Shown: piece after piece, positions 31,900 through 41,646 of the stretch
Position numbering within the stretch: the stretch's first letter is position 1
How the letters are laid out: every line of letters begins with the position of its first letter
Source: Bacteroidales bacterium
GTDB lineage: Bacteria > Bacteroidota > Bacteroidia > Bacteroidales > WCHB1-69
Assembly: GCA_017549765.1 (NCBI GenBank)
Contig: JAFYNM010000007.1
Span: 1-46,267, forward strand
Direction: 5' to 3'
DNA: 46,267 nucleotides
Notes under the pieces: generated by a model
The model's input: only the letters and a program-made list of their open reading frames with translations
Database searches by the model: none
What the model was told of the DNA's origin: nothing
Program-made: the position numbers and the translations under genes

Positions 31900-32634
31900 A
31901 TGACCAACGAATTTGATCGTATACAATATGCTCCAATACAGAACCACCGATATGAGCGGTGGTTCCGAGAGGTGCAATATAACGGCAAAGAGCTCAATGA
32001 GGATGGAAAAAAAGAGTTTTTACAGATGGTTGATGAAATAATTTCCATTCATTTGGAAGGTTTACCAGTACTGAAAGAAGCTCTTGATAGCATCAAAGAT
32101 TTGCACGATGAATTCCACGAAGCCTATAGGGTTGTAATTTCTGTTTTGCAGTTTACCATAATAACCATGATCGACAGTATGGTTATCAGCAAATATTTTA
32201 TTTTGGCCGACAAAGACTATGACCGACGGTTTATGCGTGGAAAAATGAAAGTAATTCTTAACGAGGGGTTCAAGAAACTTTATGGCTTTGAGGAAAAGAC
32301 ACACCAGAAGTCTGAGTGGAATAGACTTGTCCCTATTCTGAAAATATTTCCAGAGGACATCAAAGTCCAGTATAAACAATTATCGTCTTTACTCGAAGAA
32401 CATTCCAAATCTTCCTCTTGGTGGAGAAACGAACGTAATGTGGAAACTCATCTTAATGCTGAAAAACTCTACGAATCAAGAAGCGAGGATGTCGTGGAAA
32501 GCAAGGTAATGATGGAATCTTTAAAGTTATTCGACACTCTTTATGCAGTAAATCGTTTTCTAACAAACATGTACGCATGTTTTCTTAATAGTCTTATACA
32601 TAAGTATCGGCGTGGAGAATTGTTAGAGGACTAG
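31900..32634 (+). CDS. Helical protein with HEPN-like RxxxxH motif, upstream of the type I restriction operon
   Basis: A 244-residue protein not confidently recognised. It is almost entirely helical, with no signal peptide. A hydrophobic helix at about 77-100 (YRVVISVLQFTIITMIDSMV) is long enough for one membrane pass but could be a buried helix. Near residue 179 the string RNVETH, in the context WWRNERNVETHLNAEKLYES, fits the R-x4-H motif of HEPN ribonucleases, which sits between two helices as here. If it is a HEPN protein it could be an RNase effector. It has its own promoter and lies 123 bases before hsdM; base composition is AT-rich like the OLD gene. The assignment is a motif-level inference. 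Confidence 0.55.
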   Translation: MTNEFDRIQYAPIQNHRYERWFREVQYNGKELNEDGKKEFLQMVDEIISIHLEGLPVLKEALDSIKDLHDEFHEAYRVVISVLQFTIITMIDSMVISKYFILADKDYDRRFMRGKMKVILNEGFKKLYGFEEKTHQKSEWNRLVPILKIFPEDIKVQYKQLSSLLEEHSKSSSWWRNERNVETHLNAEKLYESRSEDVVESKVMMESLKLFDTLYAVNRFLTNMYACFLNSLIHKYRRGELLED

Positions 32635-32701
32635 AGTTGGACAAAAGAACACTCCACAAAATCGTTTCTTTCTTCATTTTCAATCTGTTTATTGCCATTT
32701 A

Positions 32702-32733
32702 TTTGTGCTTTTTTGCTATTTTTGCTATTTTTG
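32702..32733 (+). promoter_or_regulatory. Promoter of the hsd operon with tandem -7 boxes
   Basis: TTTG at 32702-32705, 20 bases, TATTTTTG at 32726-32733: a perfect Bacteroidetes promoter. A second identical TATTTTTG stands directly before it at 32717-32724, nine bases out of step. The leader is about 18-20 bases. Confidence 0.75.
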
Positions 32734-32757
32734 CGGGTTGATTGTTATTAATACTAT

Positions 32758-34269
32758 ATGGCAAAGAAAACCAATACGGCAGACCTCGGTTTTGAGGATA
32801 AAATATGGAAAGCGGCGGACCTGCTGCGCGGTTCCATCGATGCAGCCGAATATAAGAATGTGGTATTAGGGCTCATTTTCTTGAAGTATATCTCTGATTG
32901 CTTTGATGTGAAACACCAACAATTAGTGGATGAGGGCGATGGCTTTGAAGAGGATAAGGATGAATACACATCCGAGAATATCTTCTATGTGCCGGCTGAT
33001 GCCCGCTGGAGTGTGATTTCTGAGGCGGCGCACACACCCGAGATTGGCAAGGTGATTGACAATGCCATGATGGAGATTGAAAAAGAAAATGCACGCCTTA
33101 AAGGTATCTTGCCAAAGAACTTTGCGCGTCCCGAACTCGACAAACGCCGTCTAGGTGATGTCGTGGACCTTTTTACCAATACTATTGAGCTGGGCAAACG
33201 AGAAGAAAACAAAGACCTTTTGGGTCGTACATACGAATATTGCCTCTCCAAGTTTGCTTCGCTTGAAGGCAAAAATGCTGGCGAATTCTATACACCCAGC
33301 TGCATCGTTCGTACCATTGTGGGCGTGCTTGAGCCTTTTAAAGGTCGATGTTACGACCCAGCAATGGGCAGTGGCGGTATGTTTGTGCAAAGTGCCGACT
33401 TTGTGAAACACCATCAAGGGGATATCAAGAACCTCAGCATTTTTGGACAGGAGATTAACGCTAACACGCGCAAAATGGCCATGATGAACTTGGCTATTCG
33501 TGGAATTGAAGCTAATCTGGGCGACAAGAACGCTGATACTTTTTTCGACGACCAACATCCTACTTTAAAAGCTGATTTTGTGATGGCCAATCCGCCTTTT
33601 AACATGAGCGATTGGGGTGCCGACAAATTGCAAGATGATGTTCGTTGGAAATATGGCATACCACCTGCTGGAAATGCCAACTTTGCATGGATGGAGCACA
33701 TGATCAGCCATCTCTCTCCCACAGGTCGAATAGGTTTAGTGTTGGCCAATGGATCTTTGAGCAGCCAGACGGGAGGCGAGGGCGAGATTCGTAAAAATAT
33801 CTTACAGGCAGACTTGGTGGAGGGCATTGTTGCACTTCCCAGCCAGTTGTTCTACAGTACGGGCATTCCCGTTTGTCTTTGGTTCTTAAGCAGGCAAAAA
33901 GCGCAACCTGGAAAGGTGCTTTTTGTTGATGCCCGCAATATGGGCACGATGGTGACGCGCAAGCTACGCGAGATGACCGAAACCGACATTGAGCGTATTG
34001 CCCAGACTTTTACCGATTATCGCAACGGAAATCTCGCTGATGAAAAAGGCTATTGTGCCGTGAAGACCCTTGATGATGTGGCTGCGCAAGACCATATTCT
34101 AACTCCAGGCCGTTATGTGGGTATTGCCGAACAGGAGGATGATGGGGAACCTTTTGAGGAGAAGATGAACCGCCTTACCACCGAATTGAGCGGACTTTTC
34201 CAAGAGAGCCACCGGTTGGAGGAGGAAATAAAGAAGCAATTGGGAAACATAGGATTTAAGATAGAATAA
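32758..34269 (+). CDS. hsdM: Type I restriction-modification system, DNA methyltransferase subunit
   Basis: A 503-residue N6-adenine methyltransferase that with HsdS methylates the recognition sequence and with HsdR forms the restriction complex. The N-terminal helical HsdM_N domain starts FEDKIWKAADLLRGSIDAAEYKNVVLGLIFLKYIS split over residues 12-46. The catalytic domain has the AdoMet motif DPAMGSGGMF (200-209) preceded by GEFYTP, and the catalytic NPPF at 278-281. Length is normal. Two bases separate its stop from the next start. GC content looks higher than that of hsdS and the OLD gene. Confidence 0.96.
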   Translation: MAKKTNTADLGFEDKIWKAADLLRGSIDAAEYKNVVLGLIFLKYISDCFDVKHQQLVDEGDGFEEDKDEYTSENIFYVPADARWSVISEAAHTPEIGKVIDNAMMEIEKENARLKGILPKNFARPELDKRRLGDVVDLFTNTIELGKREENKDLLGRTYEYCLSKFASLEGKNAGEFYTPSCIVRTIVGVLEPFKGRCYDPAMGSGGMFVQSADFVKHHQGDIKNLSIFGQEINANTRKMAMMNLAIRGIEANLGDKNADTFFDDQHPTLKADFVMANPPFNMSDWGADKLQDDVRWKYGIPPAGNANFAWMEHMISHLSPTGRIGLVLANGSLSSQTGGEGEIRKNILQADLVEGIVALPSQLFYSTGIPVCLWFLSRQKAQPGKVLFVDARNMGTMVTRKLREMTETDIERIAQTFTDYRNGNLADEKGYCAVKTLDDVAAQDHILTPGRYVGIAEQEDDGEPFEEKMNRLTTELSGLFQESHRLEEEIKKQLGNIGFKIE

Positions 34270-34271
34270 TT

Positions 34272-34700
34272 ATGGATACGATAGTTCAATGGACAACAAT
34301 CTTTAGCCCAATTATTGCTGTGCTATTGGCAATATGGATGGTTTGGAGTAGCAATAGAGATACAGCTAAACAGATTGATAGCATTAAGGAAAGTACCTCT
34401 CGTCAGATTGAGAGAATCAAGGATTTGTCTCGCCAAATGATAGAAGCATCCATTAAACAGGTGGAATTGGAAATAGAAAAGACGCTTCTATTAGCTCGAC
34501 AGGCCCAACAAGAATGGGAGGGTGTAAAAGAGATAAATAAGTCAGAGATGAATTTATACGAATATTGGCATAAGGGGCAAATGAGAGATTATCAAGAACA
34601 AAAGCCTCAAAGGGACTATCAATTATATTCCTCTTTTGTTAAAAAATTAGAGGTCATCAAGAAAAACTTAGAAGCTAACAAAAAAGGACTGAATGCATAG
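34272..34700 (+). CDS. Small membrane-anchored coiled-coil protein inside the hsd operon
   Basis: A 142-residue protein. One N-terminal membrane helix (residues about 8-26, TIFSPIIAVLLAIWMVW) is followed by a long charged helix with heptad character (about 30-80: AKQIDSIKESTSRQIERIKD, MIEASIKQVELEIEKTLLLA) and a second helix at the C-terminus. No enzyme motif. It starts two bases after hsdM and ends 16 before hsdS, so it is certainly part of the operon. Core type I systems do not need such a subunit. Membrane anchoring of the complex, or sensing of DNA entry, is an inference from topology and position only. Confidence 0.72.
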   Translation: MDTIVQWTTIFSPIIAVLLAIWMVWSSNRDTAKQIDSIKESTSRQIERIKDLSRQMIEASIKQVELEIEKTLLLARQAQQEWEGVKEINKSEMNLYEYWHKGQMRDYQEQKPQRDYQLYSSFVKKLEVIKKNLEANKKGLNA

Positions 34701-34716
34701 CATAGAAGATTGAAGA

Positions 34717-35889
34717 ATGGCAAAATTAGGAGATTATATATTAGATATTGCTGCGGGTCCTTTTGGCTCTAACCTTAAGGTGGATTGCTTTGTGACAAAG
34801 GGCTTTCCTATTATAGATGGTGCTAATTTGAAAGGTTTCAAGGTTACGGATAATGTGACAAAATTCGTAACCGAAGATAAAGCTAGAAGTCTTCATCGTT
34901 CAATCGCAAAAAGGAATGATGTTGTTGTCACTATCAGTGGAAATGTTGGTCAAATATCGTATATTCCTAATGATTCAAAATATGTAGAATATCTTGTCTC
35001 TCAAAGACAATTCCGTGTGACATTTAATACGGAAAAAGTTTTTGTCCCTTATTTGGTGTACTATTTCCACACGAAAGAAGGACAGCATAAGATATTGTCT
35101 TTTGCCAATCAAACAGGGGTCCCAGCTTTGGCTCAACCACTCAAGAATTTTAGGAATATAGATGTAGACTTACCTTCGATAGAAGAACAGTGCAAAATTG
35201 TAGCTATATTAACTTCCATTGACAACAAAATCGAAGTAAATCAGTGTATAAATGATAATTTAGAGCAGCAAGCGCAAGCCTTATTCAAGTCGTGGTTTGT
35301 GGATTTTGAGCCTTTCAAGGATGGAGAATTTGTGGAAAGTAAGTTGGGGATGATTCCGAAGGGATGGAGAGTAGGAACGCTTGGCGAGCTTTGTAATTTC
35401 AAGAGAGGAAAGAACTTGCTGACAAAAGATGCATTACCTGGTGAGGTGCCAGTGGTGGCTGGAGGTCTTGAGCCATCCTGTTATCACCGTGTTTCCAACA
35501 CAAAAGCACCTGTGGTAACGGTAAGTGGTTCCGGAGCTAATGCTGGTTTTATGCGTATGTACTATCAGGAAGTATGGGCATCAGATTGCTCATTTATCGA
35601 CTCCACCTGCGACAGTTTATTCTTTGTGTATTGTTTCCTTTCGGCAAATAGAAGATTGCTGAAACACGCACAAACAGGAGCTGTTCAGCCTCATGTGAAA
35701 CCTGCCGATATTCATGGTTTTGAATTAGTAATACCTCCCAAAAAGGTCATTGATCAATTCCAAAGAATTGTGGCCGATACATTCACAATGAGAGGCAATA
35801 ATGAGAAAGAATCCCGTCGTCTAGCAACTCTTCGCGACACCTTGCTGCCAAAATTAATGTCGGGACAAATAAAAGTAAACGAATTATGA
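34717..35889 (+). CDS. hsdS: Type I restriction-modification system, specificity subunit
   Basis: A 390-residue HsdS with two target-recognition domains. TRD1 spans about 1-155; the central conserved helix begins LPSIEEQCKIVAILTSIDNK and continues to LFKSWFVDFEPF (about 155-205); TRD2 runs to about 340 (LGMIPKGWRVGTLGELCNF ... VVTVSGSGANAGFM); the second conserved helix ends LRDTLLPKLMSGQIKVNEL. This gives a bipartite target, whose sequence cannot be predicted. Its stop overlaps the next start (ATGA), which couples it to the OLD nuclease. It is AT-rich relative to hsdM, as expected for exchangeable specificity genes. No inverted hsdS fragments are seen nearby, so no phase-variable shuffling is evident. 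Confidence 0.95.
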   Translation: MAKLGDYILDIAAGPFGSNLKVDCFVTKGFPIIDGANLKGFKVTDNVTKFVTEDKARSLHRSIAKRNDVVVTISGNVGQISYIPNDSKYVEYLVSQRQFRVTFNTEKVFVPYLVYYFHTKEGQHKILSFANQTGVPALAQPLKNFRNIDVDLPSIEEQCKIVAILTSIDNKIEVNQCINDNLEQQAQALFKSWFVDFEPFKDGEFVESKLGMIPKGWRVGTLGELCNFKRGKNLLTKDALPGEVPVVAGGLEPSCYHRVSNTKAPVVTVSGSGANAGFMRMYYQEVWASDCSFIDSTCDSLFFVYCFLSANRRLLKHAQTGAVQPHVKPADIHGFELVIPPKKVIDQFQRIVADTFTMRGNNEKESRRLATLRDTLLPKLMSGQIKVNEL

Positions 35890-37733
35890 GCACTAATATG
35901 AGAATTAAGAAAGCAATTATTGACAATTTTAAATCCATTGACCATATTGAATTAGATTTTGACAAGGTCGGGGATAGTTATACTAAAATATTTGTGGGTG
36001 TTAACGAGTCTGGCAAAAGTAATATCCTAGAAGCTTTGTCGTATTTCAAGGTGCCAGACAACAATGTCTCTTCCGATAGTTTTTGTAACCAAAAGATTGA
36101 AGATAGAGATTCATGTAGCATTCTTTTCGAATTAGAGCATGACCCTGAAACGTTTTTGGTTCTCAATGAAAAAAACAGGAAGGAACCTGAAATCAACATT
36201 TCACTTTCTAATATTACCAAGAAAGTTTATCTTCCCATGGGAGCAAATAGATTCGCTTATTGCTATGATTATGATTTAGAATTATTGGATAACAATCTCT
36301 ATGTTAAAGACGTTCCTATGCCAAGTCAATTTGGAACTGGACATGCGATTAAAAAAAGTATTGTTGGAGAAGCAAAAAAGGATGAGAAATGTATTCAACT
36401 TACAAAAGAATTTATTCTACAGAATTATAAAAATTTAATTGACGATTATGTTCAGAAGCAGGAACCTGTGGTTTCTGTATGGAAAGCTTCTTCAGAATAC
36501 TTATTGTCAAATGTCAATCTTAATGTTTTCTCTCAAAATATCGACTCAAATAAACCTTTACGGAATATATTTTATTTGAGTGGGTATAAAGATCAAAAAT
36601 CTATTACTAATGCAATAATTAAAATTACTGTTCCGACCAAAAAAAGTATTCTTTCAAGCAAACTGAATAAAGCCATTAATGACTATATCAACAAGGTCTG
36701 GAGCAATAAGATAAACATCGTGATTGAAATAACCGAAACTGGATTTCTGACTTTTCTTATTAAAGATCAGGGTGCTGAAAATGAGCATAATAGATTTTTA
36801 ATAACTGAAAGAAGTCAGGGCGCCCAGCAGTTTTTATCCTTAATATTGTCTTTGTCCTTGGAGGCGGAGAGTCATGAGAGGAAGAATGAGTTGATATTAA
36901 TCGATGAACCAGAAACGCATTTACATCCTTCCGGAATTAGAGATTTGGGCAGAGAATTGCTGAAAATCGGACACGAAAATTATGTCTTTTTGGCGACCCA
37001 TTCTCCTTTTATCATTGATAAAAAACATAAGGAACGGCATTATATTGTAAAAAAGAATACAAAGGCTATCTCAGAGGTGGTAAGAATTAAAGAGTCTGAC
37101 AATCTCATTGACGACGAAGTCTTAAATGAAGCTTTTGGTATTAATGTCTATCAGGATTTGTTGAATCCTCATAGCATTTTGGTAGAAGGAACATCAGATA
37201 AAGTTATTTTGCAAAAAGTATTTTCTCTATTAGGTCGGAAAGATATTGGAATCACCAATGGACATGGAACAAATATTGACACAGTAGCTTCTAAAATGAA
37301 CTTTGATAATATTTCCGTACTAGTTTTAACTGACGATGACAAGGATGGGAAAAAATATAAAGCAGACATCATCAGAATAGGCGGCGTGTTTAATGAGAAT
37401 AATGTTTTCACTATTCGTGATTTGGAAGGTGGGATTATTAATCAAGGAACTATTGAGGATGCGTTGGGGATTGATTATATTCAATCCCAGTTCAGAGATT
37501 TCTGTATCAATCAATTTGGCCAAGAACTTTCTGGATTCGAACTAGTTTACGACCAACCTGTGATGTCACAAATAATTGTATTCTTGAAACGTAAGAAGAA
37601 ATATAACAGTTTGATTATCGATGCTTTAAAAAAGCAGGTTTCTGATAATTTCAACCCTAGTAAAACTGCTTTAAACAAGCAATTTGGAATTTTAAAGGGT
37701 TTGGCGGGAAAAATAATTGAAAAGTTGAATTAA
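35886..37733 (+). CDS. OLD-family endonuclease: ABC-type ATPase fused to TOPRIM domain
   Basis: A 615-residue protein. The split ATPase has Walker A GVNESGKS at 38-45, a signature-like RSQGAQQFLSL at 309-319, Walker B LILIDEPETHLHPSG (Asp340-Glu341) and the switch His372 in ATHSPF. The C-terminal TOPRIM domain has Glu434 in ILVEGTSDK and the DxD triplet at 483-485 in LTDDDKDG, the metal-binding residues of OLD nucleases. The start overlaps the hsdS stop (ATGA), and hsdR follows after 14 bases, so it is embedded between S and R. R-linked ATPase genes (rlo) are known from Campylobacter type I loci; whether this is the same family needs a comparison. No UvrD helicase (GajB) accompanies it, so it is not a Gabija pair. 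Notably AT-rich. Confidence 0.88.
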   Translation: MSTNMRIKKAIIDNFKSIDHIELDFDKVGDSYTKIFVGVNESGKSNILEALSYFKVPDNNVSSDSFCNQKIEDRDSCSILFELEHDPETFLVLNEKNRKEPEINISLSNITKKVYLPMGANRFAYCYDYDLELLDNNLYVKDVPMPSQFGTGHAIKKSIVGEAKKDEKCIQLTKEFILQNYKNLIDDYVQKQEPVVSVWKASSEYLLSNVNLNVFSQNIDSNKPLRNIFYLSGYKDQKSITNAIIKITVPTKKSILSSKLNKAINDYINKVWSNKINIVIEITETGFLTFLIKDQGAENEHNRFLITERSQGAQQFLSLILSLSLEAESHERKNELILIDEPETHLHPSGIRDLGRELLKIGHENYVFLATHSPFIIDKKHKERHYIVKKNTKAISEVVRIKESDNLIDDEVLNEAFGINVYQDLLNPHSILVEGTSDKVILQKVFSLLGRKDIGITNGHGTNIDTVASKMNFDNISVLVLTDDDKDGKKYKADIIRIGGVFNENNVFTIRDLEGGIINQGTIEDALGIDYIQSQFRDFCINQFGQELSGFELVYDQPVMSQIIVFLKRKKKYNSLIIDALKKQVSDNFNPSKTALNKQFGILKGLAGKIIEKLN

Positions 37734-37747
37734 TTTACCTCAGCAAT

Positions 37748-40700
37748 ATGTCGGATTACAACGAAGACCATTACGAGCAGACGCTGATTGAGCTGTTTAC
37801 CGAGCGGCTGGATTACGACTACCTTAACGGTTACGAGGCACAAGAGGCTTTTGATGACAAGGACTACTATTGTCCTGTCTATCTCGAACGGCTGCAGATG
37901 AAACTGCGCGATCTCAATCCCAAACTGCCGCAATCGGCCCTTGATGAAGCCGAGCGCAAGCTTCTTCACATCGAGGCGGGCAACATGGTTCAGAACAACG
38001 AACTCTTTATGGACTACCTGCAACATGGCATAGAGGTGACTTTCCACGACGGACATGAGCTGAAAAATGACATTGTGTATTTGGTTGACTATCAAAGCAT
38101 CACCAACAACGACTTTTTATTGATCAACCAATGGACCTATGTTGAGAAATCGAAGAAGCGGGCCGATCTGATTGTTTTCTTAAATGGTCTTCCGGTGGTG
38201 CTAATGGAACTGAAATCGCCCTCGCGAGAGGAAACGGATGCCAGTGCGGCCTATCGCCAATTGAAGAACTATATGAAGGAGATTCCTACTATGTTCACTT
38301 ACAATGTATTCTGTGTAATGAGCGATATGGCGGAATCGAAAGCAGGCACCATCACCTCCAACGAGGATCGTTTTATGCAATGGAAATCGAAAGACGGCGT
38401 GTATGAAAGCACCGAAGTGGTGGATTACGATGTCTTTTTCGAAGGAATGTTCCGTAAAGAACGGCTCCTTGACATCATCAAGAACTTTGTTTGTTATAGC
38501 AAAGAAGAGGGAAAAGACAATAAGATTTTAGCGGGTTATCATCAGTATTTCGCTGTCAACAAAGCCATCCAGCGCACTCGTAGCGCGGTGACGGGCGATG
38601 GTAAAATTGGTGTTTTCTGGCATACACAGGGCAGTGGCAAATCATTGTCAATGGTGTTCTACGCTCATCTGTTGCAAAGTGCCGTCTCGCAACCCACCAT
38701 CGTGGTAATTACGGACCGCAACGATCTTGACAACCAGCTTTACGGACAGTTTGCCAAATGCAAAGACTTTCTGCGTCAGGTGCCTATCCAAGCCACTTCG
38801 CGAGAGCATCTGCAAGAACTGTTGGATGGCAGAACGGCCAACGGCATCATTTTCACGACAATGCAGAAGTTTGAGGAATACGATGCTCCTCTTTCCACCC
38901 GCCGCAACATCATCGTGATGAGCGACGAGGCTCACCGCGGACAATATGGATTCGAGGAAAAGATTGATCCTGTTACGGGAAAAGTAAGCGTGGGCACCGC
39001 CCGACTCATTCACGATTCTTTGCCACACGCATCGTTCATCGGTTTCACAGGCACACCGGTGGCCTTGAAAGACCGTAACACCATCGAAGTCTTCGGCGAT
39101 TGCATTGATGTGTATGATATGACACAGAGTGTGTTGGACCACGCCACCGTGCCAGTTTATTACGAGAGTCGTGTAATCAATCTGAAACTTGACGAAGAAA
39201 CCTTGCAGCTTATTGATAAGGAATATGAGCTGTTAGAGGCTGAAGGAGCCGATGCCCAGCAAATTGAAAAGAGTAAACACGACCTCTCTCATTTGGAGGA
39301 ACTTCTGGGCGCAGATTCAACCATCGATTCGTTGGTTCGAGATATTCTCAACCATTACGAAAATTACCGAGAGCAGGAGCTCACCGGCAAAGCGATGATT
39401 GTAGCATATAGTCGTCCTATTGCCATAAAGATTTACAAACGTATTCTTGAACTTCGCCCGACGTGGACCGAGAAGGTGAAGTGCGTGATGACCAGCGGCA
39501 ACAACGATCCCGAAGAGTGGCGTGACATTATTGGCAACAGACAATATAAGCAGGAACTCGCGAAGAAGTTCAAGGACGACAACGACCCGATGAAGATTGC
39601 CATTGTGGTGGATATGTGGCTTACTGGCTTCGATGTGCCTAGTCTGGCCACCATGTATGTTTTCAAACCAATGAGCGGTCACAACCTGATGCAGGCCATT
39701 GCCCGCGTGAATCGTGTTTTCAAGGATAAAGAAGGTGGTTTGGTGGTCGATTACATTGGCATTGCCCAAGCCTTAAAGCAGGCAATGAAGTTCTACACCG
39801 AAGGCGACCGAAGGAAATTCGGTGATCCCGACATCAAGACCACAGCTCTGAAGAAATTCCAGGAAGAATTGGAAATATGCCGTGACTTAATGCATGGCTT
39901 TGATTATTCAAAATTCAAGGATTCGTCAGACTTAAAGCGTGCAGAAATCATCAAAGGCGGCACCAACTTCATGCTTTCCGTTAATATGCAGGAAAAGAGG
40001 AGCGATTATATGAAACACGCTACCTTGCTGCATCAGGCTATCACCCTCTGTCGTAGTTTGCTAAATGAAAACCAACGTTGGGAAAGTGCATTTTTCGAGA
40101 CAGTTCGTGTGATGCTCATCCGACTTAACGGCAAAGGCAAATTCTCCAAGAAAGACATCGACGAGCGCATCCGTGAATTGATGAAGCAGAGTGTGAAGAG
40201 CGAAGGAGTCATTAATCTTTTTCAAGACAACCAAAAGGATTTCTCCCTCAGCGATCCGGCATTCCTTGAGGAACTTGCCAAAATGAAGGAAAAGAACATC
40301 TCTATCCAAATTTTGGAAAATCTTTTGAAGGAGAAAGTGAGATCATTTCAGCATAAGAACCTAGTACAGAGTGAGAAATTCTCTGAGATGCTAAACTACG
40401 CGCTTAGCTGCTATTTGAAAGGAATGCTCTCTAACGAAGAGGTGATTCAGGAATTACTGAAGTTAGCCTCGCAAATTAAGGAGACTGAACAGCAAGGCAA
40501 TGACCTCGGGTTGACCGATGAGGAAAAAGCCTTTTACGATGCGCTTACCCGACCGCAAGCCGTGAAAGATCTCTATGAAAATGATGAATTGGTGGCAATG
40601 ACCAAAGAACTTACCGAAACACTTCGCAAGAACCGCACCATTGACTGGCAACATAAAGAGTCTGCCCGTGCCGGTATGCGTAAGATGGTGAAACGCTTGC

Positions 40701-40891
40701 TAAAGAAATACAAATATCCACCCGAGGAGGCAGAACACGCCCTAGACATAGTATTGAAGCAATGTGAGGAGTGGAGTGATGAAGAGGAATATGAGGTGGC
40801 AGAACCAACTATCGTCAAAATGTATCCGAAGACAGAGGAAAAGACATTGGGCATGGCGGCGGAAGATGAAGCGCCATACGGTAATGCATAA
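37748..40891 (+). CDS. hsdR: Type I restriction enzyme, endonuclease/translocase subunit
   Basis: A 1047-residue motor and nuclease. The N-terminal PD-(D/E)XK site is Asp140 (KRADLIVF), Glu154 and Lys156 (MELKSPSREE) with the QxxxY motif at 171-175. The SF2 translocase has Walker A TQGSGKS (293-299), DEAH at 393-396, FTGTP and the later LTGFDVP and IARVNR motifs. The C-terminal helical domain (about 850-1040) contacts the methyltransferase core. All catalytic residues look intact, so the system should restrict. It cuts unmethylated DNA after translocation. Its codon use resembles hsdM more than the genes between them. Confidence 0.96.
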   Translation: MSDYNEDHYEQTLIELFTERLDYDYLNGYEAQEAFDDKDYYCPVYLERLQMKLRDLNPKLPQSALDEAERKLLHIEAGNMVQNNELFMDYLQHGIEVTFHDGHELKNDIVYLVDYQSITNNDFLLINQWTYVEKSKKRADLIVFLNGLPVVLMELKSPSREETDASAAYRQLKNYMKEIPTMFTYNVFCVMSDMAESKAGTITSNEDRFMQWKSKDGVYESTEVVDYDVFFEGMFRKERLLDIIKNFVCYSKEEGKDNKILAGYHQYFAVNKAIQRTRSAVTGDGKIGVFWHTQGSGKSLSMVFYAHLLQSAVSQPTIVVITDRNDLDNQLYGQFAKCKDFLRQVPIQATSREHLQELLDGRTANGIIFTTMQKFEEYDAPLSTRRNIIVMSDEAHRGQYGFEEKIDPVTGKVSVGTARLIHDSLPHASFIGFTGTPVALKDRNTIEVFGDCIDVYDMTQSVLDHATVPVYYESRVINLKLDEETLQLIDKEYELLEAEGADAQQIEKSKHDLSHLEELLGADSTIDSLVRDILNHYENYREQELTGKAMIVAYSRPIAIKIYKRILELRPTWTEKVKCVMTSGNNDPEEWRDIIGNRQYKQELAKKFKDDNDPMKIAIVVDMWLTGFDVPSLATMYVFKPMSGHNLMQAIARVNRVFKDKEGGLVVDYIGIAQALKQAMKFYTEGDRRKFGDPDIKTTALKKFQEELEICRDLMHGFDYSKFKDSSDLKRAEIIKGGTNFMLSVNMQEKRSDYMKHATLLHQAITLCRSLLNENQRWESAFFETVRVMLIRLNGKGKFSKKDIDERIRELMKQSVKSEGVINLFQDNQKDFSLSDPAFLEELAKMKEKNISIQILENLLKEKVRSFQHKNLVQSEKFSEMLNYALSCYLKGMLSNEEVIQELLKLASQIKETEQQGNDLGLTDEEKAFYDALTRPQAVKDLYENDELVAMTKELTETLRKNRTIDWQHKESARAGMRKMVKRLLKKYKYPPEEAEHALDIVLKQCEEWSDEEEYEVAEPTIVKMYPKTEEKTLGMAAEDEAPYGNA

Positions 40892-40937: not shown

Positions 40938-41261
40938 ATGGAACAAAGAACAAAAACATATAGGTCTTTAGTGGCAAGAATTAATCGTCACATAAAAGAA
41001 AACTCGTGGGCTAATACGCCTATGGATAAGTGGTGTGTGGGTGTATCCGACAAACCTTTGCATAGTATGTCGGAATACCAGCGGGAATTGGGAATGGATG
41101 TCAGGTGCTTTGCCGTATATTATGCTTATTCAATAAAAATAGCACTCCTAGTAAAAGACCATTTCTTGAGTAAAGGATTGACTAAAGCGACAGATTTATG
41201 TGGTAATTCAGAGAACTGTCGCTGGGTGTACCTATATATGTCTCCTTTCCTCACACTTTGA
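40938..41261 (+). CDS. Small hypothetical protein after hsdR, weak GIY-YIG-like pattern
   Basis: A 107-residue protein. The string KWCVGVSDKP at 31-40 resembles the core strand of GIY-YIG-like proteins (xWYxGITxxP), and the C-terminal HFLSKGLTKATDLCGN ... WVYLYM matches the rest of a small Bacteroidetes family I recall with that start. The catalytic Arg and Glu of true GIY-YIG nucleases are not obvious, so activity is doubtful. ATG 40938 is chosen; an in-frame ATG at 40884 overlapping the hsdR stop would add 18 residues. It may be the last gene of the hsd transcript. Its end overlaps the convergent PIN gene by 11 bases. Confidence 0.6.
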   Translation: MEQRTKTYRSLVARINRHIKENSWANTPMDKWCVGVSDKPLHSMSEYQRELGMDVRCFAVYYAYSIKIALLVKDHFLSKGLTKATDLCGNSENCRWVYLYMSPFLTL

Positions 41262-41646
41262 CGAGTTGGAGTTCCGGATAATTATCAAATTTTAAGTCGC
41301 CTGTAATAAGTATACGCTTACCAGCTATCGCCTGTGCTATAATGACACGGTCGGATGGGTCAGGGTGGCTTCTGAAGAAGGGAAGTTCAAAAAGCGTCTT
41401 CAAGGTGTATTTATCGTACCCATAAATGGATATTTGTTTTTTGTTCAATGCATTTACTAATTCATCGAAGGTAATATCGGTGTTAATCTTGCCACTTTGA
41501 ACTAAATAGATGAATTCCTTGATAGATTCAACCGAAATGGCATAATCACCTTGGTAATAGTTGATGTCCTCGGCCAAACTTTTCACACGTTCATCTTCAT
41601 TCAGAAGCCAGATGAGCACGCATGTGTCTAACAAATACCTTCGCAT
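41251..41646 (-). CDS. PIN-domain toxin (VapC-like ribonuclease)
   Basis: A 131-residue PIN protein. Acidic metal-binding residues are at Asp7 (YLLDTCVLIWLL), Glu44 (SVESIKE), Asp99 (PDPSDRVIIAQA) and Asp117/Asp121 (ITGDLKFDNY), the standard PIN set, so RNase activity is likely. Its start overlaps the upstream 52-residue antitoxin gene by 19 bases, the classical order of antitoxin then toxin. It converges with the end of the restriction operon. Confidence 0.88.
   Translation of the reverse strand: MRRYLLDTCVLIWLLNEDERVKSLAEDINYYQGDYAISVESIKEFIYLVQSGKINTDITFDELVNALNKKQISIYGYDKYTLKTLFELPFFRSHPDPSDRVIIAQAIAGKRILITGDLKFDNYPELQLVKV

Follow-up and report, generated by a model that had tools for sequence, protein, structure and literature searches.

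In this study, we examined an intact gene for an OLD-family ATPase/TOPRIM nuclease that lies between hsdS and hsdR of a type I restriction-modification operon, in a stretch of 46,267 nucleotides from a Bacteroidales bacterium (assembly GCA_017549765.1, contig JAFYNM010000007.1, positions 1 to 46,267; hereafter the window). Our findings, drawn from sequence comparison, support a double dissociation in which the linkage of the gene is to the hsdS-hsdR slot and not to particular Hsd partners. On the one side, the four operons that rank next in similarity among those found (L149-L152; HsdM 69-74% and HsdR 57-68% identical) lack OLD and hold one or more other genes in the slot. On the other, the Odoribacter lunatus locus (L010, also numbered L021) fills that slot with an OLD protein of 55% identity, beside an HsdM of 35%, an HsdR of 29% and an HsdS without detectable similarity. 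With slightly better than even confidence, we read the protein as a solitary, autonomous OLD-type nuclease, an interchangeable cargo of this slot that would provide additive, second-line phage defence. The genes concerned are the following.

35886..37733, + strand: OLD-family ATPase/TOPRIM nuclease gene, open reading frame (ORF) of 615 amino acids, probable true start 35898
32758..34269, + strand: hsdM, methyltransferase subunit (Pfam N6_Mtase, 9.5e-105, and HsdM_N)
34717..35889, + strand: hsdS, specificity subunit (Pfam Methylase_S, 2e-21)
37748..40891, + strand: hsdR, restriction/translocase subunit (Pfam HSDR_N, SWI2_SNF2 and T1RH-like_C, 1.5e-87)

The OLD frame (615 codons) is uninterrupted and lies among the hsd genes on their strand, which is how we define a guest gene; 14 bases separate its end (37733) from the hsdR ATG (37748), and HsdM, HsdS and HsdR, judged by their coordinates and Pfam domains, look complete. 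An earlier interpretation made from the letters alone (the sequence-only reading) had described exactly this arrangement, together with a full set of catalytic motifs, and both descriptions hold. In Pfam, the protein matches AAA_15 (2.2e-22, residues 5-377), AAA_21 (6.4e-19) and, above the cut-off, OLD-like_TOPRIM (9.7e-6; 26.5 bits against 23.2; residues 431-485). Walker A (GVNESGKS), a signature-like RSQGAQ, Walker B (LILIDEP), the switch His (in THS) and the TOPRIM residues E434, D483/D485 and E524/D525 are all present, giving the ABC ATPase and C-terminal TOPRIM with Glu and DxD that define the OLD family. All 38 aligned sequences share the presumed catalytic residues E434, D438, D483, D485, E524, D525 and K582, as well as R309, S310, D340, E341, H372 and S373; Walker A residues G38, N40, E41, G43 and K44 occur in 36 rows, the other two being gapped there. 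A profile built from 41 relatives retrieved the Thermus scotoductus OLD structure (6p74) as the best match in the PDB (2.4e-20), with GajA second (4.5e-17). Similarly, the predicted structure (mean pLDDT 86.4, pTM 0.66) had 6p74 as its top PDB match in Foldseek (E 8.2e-17, probability 1.00), even though the TM-scores of 0.30/0.36 and the rmsd of 19.6 over 624 columns mean that the whole chains are not superposable as one rigid body. In the alignment, E434 faces GajA E379 (position counted by hand) and the DxD is aligned as well; the E379A change is reported to abolish GajA cleavage (PMC8136825), and phmmer relates the two proteins at about 1e-7. The top PADLOC models were AriA, Old and AriAB, the PARIS AriA models covering the ATPase part. 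NCBIfam matches were all far below cut-off; TIGR04435 (restriction system-associated AAA family ATPase; 45.9 bits against a curated 300) and MADS MAD3 (35.9 against 420) resemble the ATPase part weakly and stop short of the TOPRIM. No anticodon-nuclease family appeared among the Pfam and NCBIfam matches at E 0.1.

Among the described classes, class 1 (T. scotoductus OLD, P2 Old and Escherichia coli YbjD) is the nearest: it too has an ABC ATPase at the N-terminus and, at the C-terminus, a TOPRIM with E and DxD, 6p74 is the best profile and fold match, and, like the window protein, its members have no helicase or reverse-transcriptase partner. Class 1 genes are described as single and away from other defence genes (PMC10568477), whereas this one sits inside a type I operon. 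The sequence-only reading had placed the helicase-paired Gabija proteins in class 1; they belong to class 2, and retron effectors to class 3 (PMC10568477). GajA shares the catalytic Glu and DxD with the window protein, but no GajB/UvrD/PcrA/Rep-like helicase adjoins the latter, whose neighbours are hsdS and hsdR. The six neighbour proteins scanned included no reverse transcriptase, as a retron would require (a noncoding RNA was not searched), and no AriB, and the TOPRIM is on the same chain as the ATPase, which sets the protein apart from PARIS.

The four-base ATGA shared by the hsdS stop and the first ATG of the OLD frame (35886-35889), which the sequence-only reading took for a coupling device, does exist in the window; the coupling itself fares less well. 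Relatives start at the equivalent of residue 5, the second ATG of the window (35898), and in the otherwise collinear sister operon L009 the ATGA is replaced by ATAA, so that the first ATG is absent, hsdS just terminates and the OLD frame begins at the second ATG; in sister operon L008, 21 bases separate the two genes. The true start is thus probably 35898, 8 bases past hsdS, and the overlap is probably incidental rather than a conserved coupling device.

The protein is rare. At E 1e-20 it was found in four of 104 genomes of the family, four of 393 of the order and two of 395 of the phylum, its own genome included each time (order and phylum searches scored at most three candidates per genome). 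Within this HsdM/HsdR lineage, OLD was found in only three operons, the window and the sister operons L008 and L009 (L016 and L017 in a wider scan). Among the three, HsdM is 94-95% and HsdR 90.5-91.7% identical, the L008 HsdR value resting on the 445 residues before its contig ends, and OLD is 76-82% identical. The OLD gene shows dN/dS of 0.08-0.11 at dS of 1.0-1.9 (three comparisons), next to about 0.03 for HsdM and HsdR (one comparison each with defined dS), so that purifying selection, as estimated from these substitutions, is keeping it. In blastn, a block from the 3' end of hsdS through OLD into hsdR matches both sister operons (L009, 5.0 kb, 79%; L008, 3.3 kb, 80%), while the window flanks (10.8 kb left, 5.4 kb right) gave no match to the sister loci at 1e-10, the right flank being comparable only in L009. 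Given the low dN/dS and a similar block between dissimilar flanks, the OLD gene is maintained and appears to have travelled along with hsdR.

These data bear on the simplest alternative, a neutral passenger inserted by chance, to which we give very little weight. It would fit the restriction of OLD to three operons of the lineage while other lineages carry other genes; persistence over that synonymous divergence at dN/dS of about 0.1, the absence of stops from the copies listed in the family and order searches, and the use of the same slot in L021 and in a Dojkabacteria contig (L051), apparently by separate entries, speak against it. The selection estimate and the repeated use of the slot led us to reject it, and the sequence-only reading, which had also doubted a chance insertion, is borne out by the retention in three operons without detected flank similarity. 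A phage origin was also considered and rejected. A single-sequence query of viral contigs retrieved no relative, and an alignment query gave 171, of which 80 were kept: one was full length (L190, 35%, residues 1-612) and 79 were partial. Matches in phage and plasmid records were all partial and occurred in one and nine records, respectively.

The relationship of the OLD protein to its Hsd neighbours was followed in a wider scan (one genome per species over 84,980 species), which yielded 88 relatives, 80 of them kept, at 78 loci. OLD lies between hsdS and hsdR in four of these loci (L016, L017, L021 and L051) besides the window; the four are a lower bound, since few seeds went into the hsd profiles and many loci run into a contig end. 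In L051 a distant OLD (33% over 368 residues) follows the order hsdM..hsdS-OLD-hsdR with an HsdR of 42% and an HsdM of 52%, both partial. Looser cases are L011 (a DUF262 protein, by eye, then OLD, two AbiE-like genes and hsdR), L039 (OLD after hsdR), L076 (after hsdM) and L079 (convergent with hsdR). In a maximum-likelihood tree of 44 proteins (above 150 bits and 450 residues, duplicates removed), the window OLD falls in a starred clade of nine, with four hsd rows, one BREX, two in a PHP-ATPase neighbourhood and two others:

Window, L016, L017, L021: hsd context
L018, L019: OLD downstream of a PHP-domain ATPase, which in L018 matches PADLOC PDC-M49A
L020: OLD is the next gene after BrxC, PglZ and BrxL
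L022: near a toxin-antitoxin-like pair (by eye)
L023: about 0.5 kb after a DpnI-type gene and 5 kb after a Vsr-type gene

Rows with hsd context do not all group together, and relatives at 62-64% identity (in the BREX operon and beside the PHP-domain ATPase) have no recognised Hsd genes nearby. From the tree, entry into hsd operons within this clade would have happened at least twice, or once with losses; because HsdR and HsdM of L021 and the window are so unlike, the data favour two separate entries. OLD and HsdR were compared by identities and not as trees, there being only three closely linked operons. In the broader sister group (L024-L033 and L035, by eye), most neighbours are not recognisable defence genes; nonetheless, adenine-methyltransferase-like genes stand just upstream on the opposite strand in the distant Gastranaerophilales relatives L026 and L027, and L025 and L028 have a Fic-like gene among their neighbours (all by eye), so that the affinity for methylation-type or defence neighbours is not limited to hsd.

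Nor is the OLD family at large associated with type I systems, a possibility that we rejected on a comparison of 149 genomes of the order. The OLD-like TOPRIM model matched 29 times, in 24 genomes, and the HsdR-type SWI2_SNF2 model in 80 genomes. The window OLD alone lies on the same contig and less than 10 kb from an HsdR match (lists compared by eye), the only other shared contig (G234) having the two about 2 Mb apart; the count is too low, as the TOPRIM model missed the G224 protein (L011), which has an hsdR in its vicinity, and as most genomes are split into many contigs. The Hsd linkage is a trait of a few OLD lineages, not of the family. The sequence-only reading had regarded scattered homologues, or loss from close hsd operons, as signs of chance insertion; each is seen in part, with homologues in BREX, PHP-ATPase and other settings and the next four closest operons found lacking the gene.

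Could HsdS and HsdM direct the protein to specific sites, as an alternative endonuclease subunit? The sequence-only reading had entertained such targeting, or a specific OLD-Hsd partnership, and OLD does adjoin hsdS and share its operon. Against the window, however, HsdS falls to 54% in L008, 33% in L009 and no match in L010, while OLD stays at 82%, 76% and 55%; some relatives have no recognised HsdS at all, and hsdR is complete. With OLD alike while its Hsd partners differ or are absent, targeting of this kind is hard to sustain and we hold it to be highly unlikely. We also rejected an hsd-specific adaptation of the protein: residues particular to hsd-borne OLD are not in excess, with 12 columns against 15 in a matched control split (seven sequences). 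The partner swaps, the relatives in BREX and other contexts and the lack of a residue excess together disfavour a dedicated contact with HsdM, HsdS or HsdR.

The same evidence weighs on a second alternative, in which the OLD protein, like PrrC or PARIS, would be a guard inhibited by, or monitoring, the HsdMSR complex, unleashed by an anti-restriction protein to kill or arrest the cell. PrrC offers a direct precedent, an ABC-ATPase toxin embedded in the EcoprrI hsd operon and released upon inhibition of its host system (PMC3874165, PMC12707154), with described ABC motifs (PMC2610378), although it carries a C-terminal anticodon-nuclease domain where the window protein carries a TOPRIM. The matches of PARIS AriA models to the ATPase part, the gene order in L051 and the recurrence of ABC-ATPase cargo in the slot (AAA_21 with RloB, PtuA-like, AAA_15) point the same way. 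No specific contact surface is evident, however, when a 55% relative sits beside HsdM, HsdS and HsdR that are 29-35% identical or unrecognisable and relatives of 62-64% lack recognised Hsd neighbours, and hsd-specific residues are not in excess. A trigger by failed restriction, which the sequence-only reading had put forward, is a possibility that the data neither establish nor contradict. We consider such a guard a minority possibility, though a serious one; a guard that reads a feature common to type I complexes, or infection itself, is possible and compatible with the same evidence.

A third alternative, that the protein degrades ends or nicked DNA left by HsdR translocation and cleavage, draws on the nonspecific 5'-3' exonuclease activity of P2 Old and T. 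scotoductus OLD (PMC10568477) and on the fact that hsdR directly follows OLD wherever OLD fills the slot (five cases: window, L008, L009, L010 and L051). Relatives with BREX or without a recognised restriction system do not fit it, and no sequence feature indicates DNA ends as the substrate; we regard it as improbable.

If the slot rather than the partner is what matters, its other occupants become relevant. We gathered Bacteroidales operons by HsdR similarity alone, which gave 58 places besides the genomes of the window and sister operons; 40 were taken, mostly in list order, and 30 with a recognised hsdS upstream of hsdR were kept (nine of the dropped ten have a contig end within about 5.4 kb upstream of hsdR, and L156 has 9 kb without a recognised hsdS). 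At least one ORF of at least 80 amino acids lies between hsdS and hsdR in 28 of the 30, and at least one of at least 180 amino acids in 26; the slot is empty in L153 (232 bases) and L180. The hsd strand carries 63 of the 67 slot ORFs, which were called mechanically and may include a few non-genes. None of the 30 holds an OLD of the window's family. The hsdM-hsdS gap likewise carries ORFs, in 20 of 27 operons. We set aside 14 slot ORFs, 11 because they resembled another one and three because they lie on the opposite strand; of the 53 left, 40 were scanned and 30 matched Pfam at 1e-4, one of them (L182, SMC_N) below the Pfam cut-off. The families include KAP NTPase, GmrSD, SIR2-like, HerA, ApeA with HEPN, reverse transcriptase, AAA_21, RloB, AAA_15, YhcG, Fic, RhuM, AbiH, Schlafen-AlbA, Swt1-HEPN, Abi_C, DUF4062, DUF3644 and others, and PADLOC recognised Drt4 (L184), HerA (L160), AbiL (L159) and a short pAgo (L168).

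Several of these cargoes are worth recording individually. L168 (6395-10330) has a DUF3644 protein, a DUF4062 protein and, behind the latter, the short pAgo; L184 (5055-6599) a DRT4-type reverse transcriptase; and L160 (4275-7326) a SIR2-like/HerA pair. In L159, L175, L186 and L187 an AAA_21-type ATPase and a second gene stand directly before hsdR, the second gene being RloB-like by Pfam in L159 and L175 and clustering with these in the other two; the pair is possibly a split counterpart of the one-chain OLD ATPase/TOPRIM. The slot proteins at L150 (4046-4921, 292 amino acids), L181 (4222-5205, 328) and L167 (7131-8036, 302) matched neither Pfam at 1e-4 nor PADLOC at 1e-5 and may represent unknown defence families.

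That genes can be embedded between hsdS and hsdR is already known. DarTG2 of enteropathogenic E. coli (EPEC) and TgvAB of Vibrio cholerae occupy this site (PMC12255303, PMC11411939), which has been termed a potential recombination hotspot (PMC12255303); both are guest defence genes in type I operons, as here, although DarTG2 is a toxin-antitoxin pair, TgvAB a two-gene type IV system and neither belongs to the OLD family. TgvAB is reported to work without its host operon, with stronger protection from the whole cluster (PMC11411939). In Campylobacter jejuni, RloC and RloF are also inserts in type I loci, RloF between hsdR and hsdS (PMC2610378, PMC11411939); unlike the window OLD, RloC is an anticodon nuclease and RloF a DUF262 protein. 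The sequence-only reading had cited the Rlo genes as a precedent for position, soundly, and PrrC, DarTG2 and TgvAB can be added. TOPRIM/OLD genes serve BREX as backup effectors according to a 2026 survey (PMC12839542), that is, OLD-ABC/TOPRIM genes in a methylation-based defence operon, as here, with a type I host in our case instead; L020 looks like an example.

Overall, we suggest that the OLD gene would be transcribed together with the hsd genes, given their spacing, strand and a promoter-like match; that ATP binding by the ABC domain would gate the TOPRIM active site; and that, when a phage escapes or blocks type I restriction, the protein would nick or degrade DNA on its own trigger, with no targeting by HsdS or HsdM, adding a second line of defence. 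The lone class 1 YbjD of E. coli, which gives anti-phage phenotypes when induced, with its ATPase domain needed and its TOPRIM domain dispensable (PMC13261556), supports partner-free action, yet it cautions that the effective step may be something other than DNA cleavage. Several points weigh against this proposal. The predicted cleavage may be wrong, if YbjD is a guide, and a 2023 OLD review was aware of no bacterial class 1 OLD able on its own to provide broad defence (PMC10568477). The relatives outside hsd could depend on other partners, and several of them adjoin methylation genes (BREX in L020, methyltransferase-like genes in L026 and L027). The block from the hsdS 3' end through OLD to hsdR has held together in three genomes, which coupled function would also explain; the residue comparison covers only seven sequences; and we infer co-expression solely from spacing, strand and one promoter-like match. 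In a variant, which we think rather unlikely, the slot would serve as a permanent docking site where second-line effectors can be exchanged, their activity being gated by the state of the restriction complex; were it correct, OLD proteins in unrelated type I operons would be a backup that responds to a block of restriction regardless of the Hsd family around them.

The OLD classes of the review do not cover a type I operon context (PMC10568477), and we found no description of an OLD ATPase/TOPRIM gene in the hsdS-hsdR slot in the open-licence literature, outside which Krishnan et al. 2020 lay. OLD nucleases thus join the guests of this slot. The near-universal and highly varied use of the slot is a more interesting result than OLD itself: filled in nearly all the Bacteroidales operons with related HsdR (28 of 30), with known and unknown genes, many of defence families, it offers a convenient starting point for finding new defence systems, and for asking if guests simply share the operon's expression or are wired to restriction. 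The window gene, free of a helicase or retron partner, also suits the question whether a lone OLD defends broadly, termed open in the 2023 review (PMC10568477), to which YbjD begins an answer (PMC13261556).

The surroundings of the OLD gene supply the remaining observations, including two features upstream of hsdS.

32702..32733, + strand: Bacteroidota-type promoter-like match, TTTG-N19-23-TANNTTTG, ending 24 bases before hsdM
34272..34700, + strand: 142-amino-acid cargo ORF in the hsdM-hsdS slot, no Pfam family above cut-off

The pattern TTTG-N19-23-TANNTTTG, which we take to be the Bacteroidota promoter consensus, has five matches in the window against 0.61 expected by chance; the one before hsdM is the sole match in 31900-40891, with none from hsdM to the end of hsdR. 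Upstream of hsdM, L009 too has the TATTTTTG box and L008 a copy of it with one change, whereas the full two-box pattern is absent before hsdM in L008, L009 and L010. A sigma-70-type scan was uninformative (30 matches against 21.2 expected), and no terminator-like site was seen on the + strand between 35889 and 37748. The 142-amino-acid protein has a hydrophobic N-terminus followed by a charged, perhaps coiled-coil stretch (by eye); L009 has a copy 71% identical, and L008 none. A 244-amino-acid ORF upstream of hsdM (31900-32634) has no family above cut-off, and a PIN-domain (VapC-like) gene lies downstream of hsdR on the opposite strand (41251-41646, - strand). In L008 (7161-10612) and L149, a phage-integrase-family recombinase, recognised by Pfam in L008 and by clustering with the L008 gene in L149, stands beside two or three hsdS genes or pieces, which suggests hsdS shuffling. 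The window's own genome also has a second type I operon (L189, G000:C23:72000-88000) with an HsdR of a different lineage, in the order hsdM, Schlafen-AlbA gene, hsdS, protein kinase, TPR protein, hsdR and YgjP-like metallopeptidase.

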